A DNA stretch of 23,315 nt from Sedimenticola sp. Lineage in GTDB: Bacteria > Pseudomonadota > Gammaproteobacteria > Chromatiales > Chromatiaceae. The stretch spans positions 1 to 23,315 of the forward strand of contig JALWGP010000357.1 in NCBI GenBank assembly GCA_027038775.1, given 5' to 3'. Position 1 is the first letter of the stretch. Every line of letters begins with the position of its first letter. The position numbers were made by a program, and so were the translations under genes. Below, piece by piece: positions 18,764 to 19,600 of this stretch. The notes below the pieces were generated by a model. The model ran no database searches, had not been told where the DNA came from, and saw nothing but the letters and a program-made list of their open reading frames with translations.

Positions 18764-18825
18764 CGGGCATGAAAAAAGCCCACCACACGGTGGGCTTTTC
18801 TGCTGTATGGCGCGCCAGGAAGGAT
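18764..18825 (-). repeat. Direct repeat copy 1: truncated tRNA-Arg 3' end plus terminator
   Basis: These 62 bp are identical to 18917-18978 except at one base (18793/18946). They contain the last 18 nt of the tRNA-Arg gene (18808-18825, including the encoded CCA) and its downstream terminator hairpin GCCCACC-ACAC-GGTGGGC followed by T residues on the minus strand. The rest of the tRNA is missing, so this is a remnant and not a gene. Confidence 0.9.
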
Positions 18826-18866
18826 GGCTCACGCTTCGCGTTCGCTCTGCGCGCCTTCGGCGCTTG
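18826..18866. mobile_element. 41-nt palindromic insert in the T-loop of the tRNA-Arg remnant
   Basis: In the intact tRNA the T-arm complement reads GGAAGGAT/TCGAACC without a break. In the remnant the same two halves (ending 18825, resuming 18867) are separated by 41 GC-rich nt that start GGCTC. Two short hairpins are visible in it: ACGC-TTC-GCGT and GCGCC-TTC-GGCGC. It is too short to code for anything. Confidence 0.55.
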
Positions 18867-18889
18867 TCGAACCGAGCCTTTTGGATTTC

Positions 18890-18905
18890 GTCGGAGGTTC
18901 GAATC
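18890..18905 (+). repeat. Inverted copy of the tRNA-Arg T-arm
   Basis: GTCGGAGGTTCGAATC on the plus strand is identical to the tRNA-Arg T-arm, which is read from the minus strand at 18976-18991. A second match, CGAACCGAGC (18868-18877), corresponds to the anticodon-stem 3' strand. The spacer unit therefore holds an opposite-facing fragment of its host tRNA. Confidence 0.75.
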
Positions 18906-18916
18906 TCCTTCGTAGC

Positions 18917-18978
18917 CGGGCATGAAAAAAGCCCACCACACGGTGAGCTTTTCTGCTGTATGGCGCGCCAGGAAGGAT
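18917..18978 (-). repeat. Direct repeat copy 2: 3' end of the intact tRNA-Arg plus terminator
   Basis: This is the second copy of the 62-bp repeat found at 18764-18825 (offset 153 bp). It includes the true tRNA 3' end and the terminator at 18925-18952, in which base 18946 creates a wobble pair. Confidence 0.9.
18925..18952 (-). terminator. Terminator of tRNA-Arg
   Basis: On the minus strand the stem GCTCACC/GGTGGGC (one G-U pair, 4-nt loop) is followed by six T residues, about 9 nt after the encoded CCA. Confidence 0.8.
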
Positions 18979-19037
18979 TCGAACCTCCGACCGCTCGGTT
19001 CGTAGCCGAGTACTCTATCCAGCTGAGCTACTGGCGC
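18961..19037 (-). tRNA. tRNA-Arg (anticodon ACG)
   Basis: The 77-nt gene starts GCGCCAGTAGCTCAGCTGG and ends with an encoded CCA. The acceptor stem GCGCCAG/CTGGCGC is perfect. The anticodon arm is CTCGG-CTACGAA-CCGAG with anticodon ACG at 19001-19003 (A34 normally becomes inosine and reads CGN codons). The T-arm has GGTTCGAATC. It follows tRNA-Ser(GCU) on the same strand, the order found downstream of csrA in E. coli (serV-argV). Confidence 0.96.
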
Positions 19038-19083
19038 GTGGGTGGCAAATTTTGCGGCTTTGCCGGCCGTTTGTCAATGGAGG

Positions 19084-19106
19084 CAGATGGCGGAGAGCGA
19101 GGGATT
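19084..19106 (-). repeat. Truncated tRNA-Ser 3' end (remnant copy)
   Basis: These 23 bp are identical to 19220-19242, offset 136 bp. They carry the acceptor 3' strand with CCA (19088-19090) and the T-stem start of tRNA-Ser, after which the sequence departs at the T-loop. Confidence 0.85.
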
Positions 19107-19135
19107 GGCTCCCTGCGGTCGCCTCTGCTCCGCGG
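19106..19135. mobile_element. 30-nt insert in the T-loop of the tRNA-Ser remnant
   Basis: The intact gene reads GGGAT/TCGAACCC. The remnant has GGGAT (19101-19105), then 30 nt starting TGGCTC and ending CCGCGG, then TCGAACCC (19136-19143). The position and the GGCTC start match the insert in the tRNA-Arg remnant, and both share TCGC-CTCTGC-like sequence. Confidence 0.55.
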
Positions 19136-19154
19136 TCGAACCCGGCCTGTTTGA

Positions 19155-19176
19155 ATCGAAGGTTCGAATCCCGCTC
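19155..19176 (+). repeat. Inverted copy of the tRNA-Ser T-arm
   Basis: The plus strand carries AAGGTTCGAATCCC followed by GCTC, preceded by ATCG. It matches the tRNA-Ser T-arm (ATCGAGGGTTCGAATCCC, then TCGCTC, read from the minus strand) with one substitution and a 2-nt deletion. It is opposite in direction to the host tRNA, as in the tRNA-Arg unit. Confidence 0.65.
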
Positions 19177-19223
19177 ATTTCAGGGCCAGTGCTGCTTCAG
19201 CTTCGCGGCATTGTCCCAACAGA

Positions 19224-19313
19224 TGGCGGAGAGCGAGGGATTCGAACCCTCGATGGGCGTTAACCCATACACCCTTAGCAGGGGTGCGCCTTCAGCCACT
19301 CGGCCAGCTCTCC
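19224..19313 (-). tRNA. tRNA-Ser (anticodon GCU)
   Basis: The 90-nt class II tRNA gene starts GGAGAGCTGGCCGAGTGG and ends in an encoded CCA. The acceptor stem GGAGAGC/GCTCTCC is perfect. The anticodon GCT is at 19277-19279 in the loop CTGCTAA. A long variable arm (TATGGGTTAACGCCCAT) is typical of serine tRNAs. It lies 74 bp downstream of csrA. Confidence 0.96.
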
Positions 19314-19387: not shown

Positions 19388-19600
19388 TTATGACTCCCCG
19401 GTTCCTTCCGTGGAAAGGTTTCCCGCCTCTTCCAGCTGTTCCGCCTTGATGCGCTCGTAGATCTCCTCCCGGTGAACGGAGATGTCCCTTGGGGCGTTCA
19501 CGCCGATGCGCACCTGGTTGCCTTTCACACCGAGCACGGTAACGGTGACATCGTCACCGATCATCAGGGTCTCCCCGACCCTGCGCGTCAATATCAACAT
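19388..19600 (-). CDS. csrA: Carbon storage regulator CsrA
   Basis: CsrA is a small dimeric RNA-binding protein that recognises GGA motifs in mRNA leaders and controls translation and stability of metabolism, motility and biofilm genes. The 70-residue protein begins [17 protein letters not shown] and contains [19 protein letters not shown]. The RNA-binding residues L4 and R44 are present. The Glu/Thr/Ser-rich tail is a few residues longer than in E. coli (61). AGGAG precedes the ATG. It lies between lysC and tRNA-Ser, the position conserved in gammaproteobacteria. The leader holds several GGA motifs, which suggests self-regulation. Confidence 0.97.

Follow-up and report, generated by a model that had tools for sequence, protein, structure and literature searches.

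Host-matched antisense arms in tRNA-linked repeats downstream of tRNA-Ser and tRNA-Arg genes of a Sedimenticola genome

The two repeat structures located between csrA and folE in the window, by which we mean the whole 23,315-nucleotide stretch of Sedimenticola DNA analysed here, are almost certainly tRNA-linked repeats (TLRs), the family of E. coli rttR. Ahead of its hairpin core, each unit carries an arm antisense to part of the T-arm and variable loop of its own host tRNA. The TLR family itself is already known. Judged from sequence comparison, what appears to be new is its range beyond the enterics, the host-matched arm, and the sharing of cores that bear locally matched arms.

According to the available parts of PMC8144298, TLRs have been known since 1978 and had no known function as of 2021; E. 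coli K-12 has 22 of them at ten loci, with one to five per locus. The same parts of that source state that the 5S-linked TLRs are expressed by read-through of terminator T1 and then processed, and that deleting them had modest effects only.

Repeat units downstream of tRNA-Ser(GCU) and tRNA-Arg(ACG)

On the minus strand of the window, the order was csrA, tRNA-Ser(GCU), a unit, tRNA-Arg(ACG), a second unit, and folE; all coordinates below refer to this strand. tRNA-Arg(ACG), the host of the Arg unit, was found at 18961..19037 (ARAGORN; Rfam RF00005, 64.7 bits), and its trailer contained a terminator-like hairpin and a T run, recognised by eye, at 18925..18952. The antisense arm ATTCGAACCTCCGAC (15 nt, 18890..18904) was the exact reverse complement of 18977-18991 and corresponded to tRNA-Arg positions 46-60. 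It was followed by GGTTCGA, a short direct copy of the T-stem end and the T-loop (18867..18873), by a hairpin insert of 41 nt (18826..18866), and by a second copy of the tRNA 3' end, from ATCC to CCA, with its trailer and terminator-like hairpin (18764..18825). The last part belonged to a 62-bp direct repeat (18764-18825 and 18917-18978; 98% identical, one difference), which comprised the T-loop end, the acceptor, CCA, the trailer, and the terminator-like hairpin.

The host of the Ser unit, tRNA-Ser(GCU), was located at 19224..19313 (ARAGORN; Rfam RF00005, 56.5 bits). Its 15-nt antisense arm (19155..19169) corresponded to tRNA-Ser positions 46-60 with one change, which was G-U compatible. GGTTCGA (19136..19142) was preceded by G as in the host, the hairpin insert was 29 nt long (19107..19135), and the second 3' end (AATCCC...CCATCTG, 19084..19106) was a 23-bp direct repeat of 19220-19242. 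Thus, each unit began past an intact tRNA and its trailer and closed with a second copy of the 3' end of the same tRNA, and the parts stood in one order in both: the antisense of positions 46-60, a spacer (16 nt in Arg, 12 nt in Ser), GGTTCGA, the insert, and (A)ATCC of the second 3' end.

The first-pass annotation had placed here two T-loop inserts of 41 and 30 nt, each continuing with TCGAACC and accompanied by an inverted T-arm stretch. All of these elements were present, and the Arg length was correct, but the Ser insert measures 29 nt. The structures had been taken as remnants of two different tRNAs; instead, the pieces are partial repeats of the intact tRNA directly upstream, Arg in one case and Ser in the other. 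The insert had further been regarded as shared between the two. The likeness proved to be loose, with 63% identity against a shuffle mean of 54%, a score reached by 8 of 2000 shuffles.

The annotation could match the structures to no named element. They agree, however, with the TLRs. A TLR locus lies immediately downstream of a tRNA or rRNA gene and holds one to several units, each of which closes with a repeat of approximately 18-19 bp from the 3' end of its host RNA (PMC8144298, on E. coli). Both window units lay directly 3' of a tRNA gene on the same strand, ended in repeats of 62 and 23 bp, and occurred once per locus, whereas relatives had two to four units (for example, L030, L039, and L105). 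In the metagenome-assembled genome to which the window belongs (89% complete), an exact 11-mer repeat of the 3' end within 500 nt was found for 2 of the 19 tRNA genes called, that is, for the window pair; two of the 19 had a 3' flank of just 57 and 0 nt. The locus is shared with a named Sedimenticola contig, L133 and L024 having the same Ser and Arg stretches.

E. coli K-12 showed comparable units. Downstream of tyrV, three 178-bp repeats, one of which is annotated as rttR, had their parts ordered as in the window units. When twelve further tRNA regions were read, units were found at argQ, argZ, argV, lysT, lysW, lysY, lysZ, lysQ, lysV, serX, and proK. At lysV and lysQ, ATTCGAACCTGC was the exact antisense of the T-loop and the 5' strand of the T-stem, and the variable-loop bases differed. 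In the arm at serX, proK, and tyrV, both T-stem strands were present around TGAGAA. No antisense arm was found in the seven units at argQ, argZ, argV, lysT, lysW, lysY, and lysZ (regions argV-argQ, L190, and lysT-lysQ, L193), nor did the final 60 nt of 5S recur in inverted form in the 5S-linked rrB; the arm is therefore not essential to a TLR. As judged by eye, four of the five armed E. coli units (lysV, lysQ, serX, proK, and tyrV) come after a terminator-like hairpin.

The Rfam model RtT (RF00391) did not match the window at its gathering score of 45 bits, and L021, which covers the same region, gave no match at E values up to 0.1. Over the whole length of the model, three units of L039 scored 30.8-32.2 bits, below 45 but the best among the seven non-E. 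coli loci tested.

As a separate observation, csrA (19391-19600, minus strand) lies directly upstream of the tRNA-Ser/tRNA-Arg pair, and E. coli has the likewise arranged csrA, serV, and argV/Y/Z/Q. Binding of E. coli 5S-linked TLR RNAs to Hfq and CsrA is reported in the available text of PMC8144298.

Match between the antisense arm and its host tRNA

The arm was compared with its host at six informative bases per unit, namely, three in the variable loop and the outer three on the 5' side of the T-stem. In the 44 units fetched without the stricter pattern, 243 of 264 informative bases matched the own host, and 5000 shuffles of the hosts gave a mean of 162.9 and a maximum of 191. In the adjoining 5 nt, where a longer arm would complement the T-stem 3' strand, the match was 103 of 220, at the level of the shuffles (mean 100.4, maximum 114). 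The matched span is hence positions 46-60, which take in the T-loop, the 5' strand of the T-stem, and 3 variable-loop nucleotides. The inverted T-arm that the annotation had called host-specific is so within this span and not as a whole T-arm.

The match was also observed with reduced sets. When each combination of tRNA type and host sequence was represented by a single unit (18 units), the match was 91 of 108 against a mean of 57.3 and a maximum of 75, and 17 units found with the stricter pattern, in which two bases only were free, gave 32 of 34 (shuffle mean 14.0, maximum 23). A version with 61 units, which includes loci whose fetch pattern already fixed four of the six tested bases, reached 339 of 366 (mean 235.3, maximum 267; 2000 shuffles). 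Of 13 different six-base host sequences, 10 had at least one unit with an exact arm.

When the inverted match was scored over 15 nt, 53 of 62 real units, some of them fetched with patterns that already held part of the arm, had 0 or 1 mismatches, and the best match in shuffled units had at least 3 mismatches in all 3100 trials. This test used 62 of the 64 tRNAs with a direct repeat because of unit length limits; one more was dropped later for a weak anchor (61). Three units without a recognisable GGTTCGA were dropped in delimiting the inserts. On these comparisons, chance is excluded as the origin of the inverted match. In 43 of 44 loci, the units themselves measured 134-197 nt. Some units fitted poorly: L119 (Pro-GGG) showed no match, L084 a poor one, and several Ser units were off in the variable loop. 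The arm-host differences included 7 G-U of 30, with no clear G-U bias.

Conservation was examined at orthologous loci. At the Arg locus of 10 congeners, the arm was 100% identical, compared with 53% for the 5 nt preceding it, 65% for the spacer, 72% for the trailer, and 83% for the insert; GGTTCGA (97%), the second 3' end (96%), and the tRNA itself (97%) were also well kept. At the Ser locus of five congeners, the arm was 93% and the insert 73% identical. Since the arm is conserved and host-matched while the adjoining 5 nt stand at chance, the arm is constrained, with a sharp border at position 60. Additionally, the base before GGTTCGA followed host position 51 in 28 of 58 units (shuffle mean 14.5, maximum 24; 5000 shuffles), so that a possible small hairpin, TCGAACCN...N'GGTTCGA, is extended.

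Distribution of the units and character of their cores

A 102-base query of the Arg unit matched 17 of 55 genomes, its own included, at E values below 1e-5. Most of the further matches up to an E value of 1 spanned just the 16-nt T-arm part. Two of the 17 genomes, G020 and G021, had no tRNA call in the vicinity of the match.

Across the class, a pattern search hit 39 of 369 genomes (own included) and listed 59 places, compared with 11 for the backward pattern that served as a control. Two of the 59 (G068:C230 and G379:C148) were left out of the reading, and 56 distinct sites were read: 33 lay downstream of a tRNA in the same orientation, 10 on the antisense strand of a tRNA, 11 were without a tRNA within 700 nt, and 2 were at a contig start. 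At least two of the eleven sites without a tRNA (L060 and L080) still showed unit 3' ends and hairpins. The pattern selected for RATTCRAACC, and the conservation of this motif is thus partly built in; the bases tested for the host match were outside the selection. A stricter scan of a collection of 84,980 species returned 39 stretches, in Sedimenticola, Thiodiazotropha, other Chromatiales, Thiotrichales, Ectothiorhodospiraceae, Lysobacterales, Solimonas, and others. Its 42 distinct sites comprised 28 located 3' of a tRNA, 7 contig starts, 5 without a tRNA, and 2 antisense. The matches in Dehalococcoidia, Aenigmatarchaeota, Eremiobacterota, and Sphingomonadales (L127, L144, L146, and L157) were without a tRNA call upstream in the same orientation. 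L128, L137, and L152 include units and are named as Proteobacteria only, a name that does not resolve the class. The repeat family at tRNA 3' ends that the annotation had proposed, interrupting a T-loop copy at TTCGA/ATCC, was found again in both scans. The annotation had named the lack of further instances or of a link to tRNA genes as the outcome that would speak against it, and neither occurred (33 of 56 and 28 of 42 sites 3' of a tRNA).

In a draw of 160 genomes across the phylum, the strict pattern hit the own genome, 0 of 39 other class members, and 7 of 120 genomes outside the class, with 8 genomes for the backward control. None of the seven outside matches showed the T-arm antisense signature by eye, and two looked like the antisense strand of a tRNA. 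This draw (0 of 39, and none of 120 by eye) indicates that TLRs of the exact form seen in the window are patchy. From the sequences, TLRs occur patchily in many gammaproteobacterial lineages, and the family extends well outside Enterobacterales. No match was found in phage records with the Arg region as the query, nor in plasmid records with the Arg core. Viral contigs gave 2 pattern matches, and no tRNA was called upstream of either one within the locus.

The hosts were tRNA-Ser (GCU, GGA, CGA, UGA), tRNA-Arg (ACG, CCG, UCU, UCG, CCU), and tRNA-Lys (CUU, UUU), and further TLRs were hosted by tRNA-Pro (UGG, GGG), tRNA-Met, tRNA-Thr, and also tRNA-Tyr (E. coli tyrV). Arrays of up to four units were found at tRNA-Ser and tRNA-Arg of relatives; in L030, three units followed Arg and four followed Ser, as counted by the inverted arm.

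Several individual loci deserve mention. L034 and L108, which are the same place, contain a TLR unit with GGCGCGCCA upstream and no tRNA called in the locus, perhaps an orphan left after loss of the tRNA. L145 and L136 have much longer inserts (163 nt at Arg-UCG, with many GNA hairpins), which suggests modular gain of hairpins. In Lys-type arrays of Sedimenticola relatives (L126, L131, and L156), the T-stem letters of both the arm and the 3' end change from one unit to the next, as if older host sequences were recorded in the arrays. The draft contigs at L177 and L178 (G009 and G006) end on the folE side of the locus and gave no clean empty site for the genus; repeat arrays may therefore break assemblies and hide units.

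Near-identical inserts were found at different tRNAs. The identity was 89% between Arg-ACG of L095 and Pro-UGG of L150, 88% between Arg of L030 and Met of L103, and 86% between Ser-GCU of L089 and Arg-ACG of L095, against a shuffle mean of 51% and a 99th percentile of 65%. The arms of these five loci fitted their own hosts, except for one variable-loop base in L095. Because the similar cores come from different genomes, the pairs point to spread between tRNA types over time, not to a recent jump. The proposal that the repeat copies the T-arm of its host fits such cores with locally matched arms, but not the complement of the T-stem 3' strand, which stood at chance in the 44 units. By sequence, an arm copied at insertion and an arm kept by selection would both be compatible with shared cores bearing local arms.

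The hairpins of the cores were counted by running a strand-symmetric stem finder on each sequence; RNAalifold returned no structure for the core alignments. Removal of near-duplicates (>85% identity) reduced the set from 59 to 45 units, and the core alignment was made without two units with very long inserts and one lacking GGTTCGA. The stems of the 45 non-redundant inserts contained 4 G.T and 7 A.C mismatches beside 735 Watson-Crick pairs. In the controls, the G.T:A.C counts were 56:8 in tRNA genes, 88:25 in 60-nt trailers, and 73:63 in distant flanks. With a minimum of 3, 4, or 5 pairs, the counts were 4:8, 4:7, and 7:9 for TLRs and 22:4, 56:8, and 55:24 for tRNA genes, so that the ratio depends little on the threshold, although the counts are small and related sequences are not independent. 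Among 125 loops, 57 were GNA triloops and 0 were TNC, compared with 18 and 10 of 466 in distant flanks. The tRNA-sense strand folded better than its complement in 42 of 45 inserts with DNA parameters and in 35 of 45 with RNA parameters. GNA loops reportedly make unusually stable DNA minihairpins. Both positive controls showed a G.T excess, as expected of RNA hairpins selected on the tRNA strand, and the core hairpins lack it, so that selection may act on something other than the RNA. These results suggest that the hairpin core is selected or maintained at the DNA level, or on both DNA and RNA.

Possible role of the arms and relation to known elements

As for the mode of action, we tentatively lean, at somewhat less than even chances, towards a palindromic core of DNA type combined with two host-fitted arms, the antisense arm pairing with the T-arm of its own tRNA. 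The antisense arm complements tRNA positions 46-60 and the direct arm repeats positions 59-76 plus the trailer, with the core between them. The antisense arm would be retained because of its pairing with the T-arm, most likely in the smaller share of transcripts that extend beyond the first terminator. In such read-through RNA, the arm would take the T-arm and the second 3' end would take the acceptor 5' strand, giving an alternative form of the pre-tRNA, and the second 3' end with its CCA would supply a tRNA-like 3' end for RNA processing. The core might spread among tRNA genes as a DNA palindrome, either with the help of some enzyme or because similar tRNA 3' ends recombine.

With RNA energies, the predicted duplex was stronger with the own host (-24.4 kcal/mol) than with other hosts (-18.1 kcal/mol), the own host giving the stronger one in 59 of 60 units. 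The competing hairpins, that is, the T-arm (-5.2 kcal/mol) and the arm with GGTTCGA (-9.9 kcal/mol), were both predicted to be weaker than the own-host duplex. For both window loci, the minimum free energy fold from the tRNA start to the second CCA joined the T-arm to the antisense arm and the 5' strand of the acceptor to the second 3' end; such folds ignore kinetics and would act only in transcripts past the first terminator, where one exists. The anatomy of E. coli tyrV, lysV, lysQ, serX, and proK, which is the same, is consistent with this reading. Against it, the core hairpins lack an RNA wobble signature, and an arm behind a terminator would presumably be transcribed rarely. The armless E. 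coli units, the misfits L119 and L084, the variable-loop differences of several Ser units, the absence of a clear G-U bias, and the modest effects of deleting the 5S-linked TLRs also weigh against it.

As the reason for the arm match, we place RNA pairing slightly ahead of homing at the DNA level, which we consider possible but unlikely. In the latter case, the TLR would be a selfish palindromic repeat moving as single-stranded DNA, with GNA hairpins read by a recombinase or transposase and with arms that anneal to opposite strands flanking the T-loop and are remade from the host at each insertion. The near-perfect hairpins without wobble bias, the 57 GNA loops against no TNC among 125, the more stable sense strand (42 of 45 and 35 of 45), and the near-identical cores with local arms would be expected of such an element, and GNA DNA minihairpins are said, after work by Yoshizawa in 1997, to be stable. 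No mobile enzyme was found, however, the Arg region and Arg core had no match in phage and plasmid records, respectively, the Arg-locus units of the genus look inherited with the locus, and homing offers no reason for a constraint on the arm after insertion. Y1 transposases were present in 37 of 55 relatives; a requirement for a Y1 (RAYT) transposase was rejected because no Y1_Tnp match was found in the TLR-bearing genomes G013, G014 (84% complete), and G030.

A related proposal, to which we give a rather low probability, is that TLRs are retargetable: one core would move among tRNA genes, and both arms would be rebuilt from the new host (antisense 46-60, direct 59-76). Arms rebuilt per host would act as an address to the opposite strands on either side of the T-loop.

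It seems improbable that the inverted repeats are functionless and simply kept perfect by template switching during replication (quasipalindrome correction). Hairpins and arm alike are near-perfect Watson-Crick complements, and direct-repeat arrays flanked by inverted repeats are expected to slip. Nevertheless, such correction should not respect a border, and the match stops at position 60, with the contiguous next 5 nt at chance in 44 units; of the explanations, we infer that this one is the least able to account for that border.

Slightly less probable still is a topological element that ends highly transcribed genes, such as a REP/BIME-like gyrase or cruciform site of which the arms are only hairpin parts. 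The position at the 3' ends of tRNA and rRNA transcription units and the DNA-like palindromes agree with it, and the available part of PMC12306157 lists rttR as holding a REP. It fails to explain why the arm follows the T-stem and variable loop of the host, when the direct copy within the unit holds little beyond GGTTCGA. Finally, although direct repeats from the T-loop to past the tRNA 3' end resemble att cores, attL/attR scars of integrative elements using the T-loop as attB are very improbable, because the units are often tandem, short with regard to the length given above, conserved in their inverted arm and hairpins, and spread over many tRNAs and lineages, and because the Arg region has no phage match and the two viral pattern matches have no called tRNA upstream.

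The host-matched arm with its sharp borders indicates what a TLR must recognise and thereby offers a handle on the question of its function. As E. coli lysV and lysQ carry the T-loop/T-stem part of the arm exactly, direct experiments are possible. If the arms act in RNA, tRNA operons would bear a built-in antisense to their own product. If they are remade at each new tRNA, this would be an unrecognised retargeting mechanism, by which an element of less than 200 nt switches targets in a new way, even in such common bacteria as E. coli.

In comparison with known systems, REP/BIME elements with RAYT share intergenic palindromes and DNA-like hairpins with TLRs, whereas TLRs are tied to tRNA 3' ends, carry host-matched arms, and need no Y1-type gene in the genome. 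Integrative elements targeting tRNA genes share the direct repeat from the T-loop to the 3' end; unlike them, TLR units of 134-197 nt are too short for an integrase gene and possess the inverted arm. The 5S-linked TLRs RrA, RrB, and RrF have, according to the available text of PMC8144298, a direct copy of the host 3' end, hairpins, and a place after the terminator in common with the window family, although RrB is without the inverted copy. The open PMC literature searched yielded no account of a host-matched arm, and the words "inverted" and "T-arm" have 0 occurrences in the text of PMC8144298; for E. coli, the inverted stretch may already be described in Egan and Landy 1978, Bosl and Kersten 1991/1994, or Rudd 1999. 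The closest likeness is to the E. coli TLRs (rttR of tyrT/tyrV, RtT), which also lie 3' of a tRNA, are often tandem, and end in a copy of the host 3' end. The rttR-type units share the hairpin-rich core ending in GAG-T(A/C)ATCC, and those at lysV, lysQ, serX, proK, and tyrV share the inverted T-arm stretch ahead of the core. In most non-enteric units, the arm is the antisense of positions 46-60 including the T-loop, whereas the loop reads TGAGAA at serX, proK, and tyrV.
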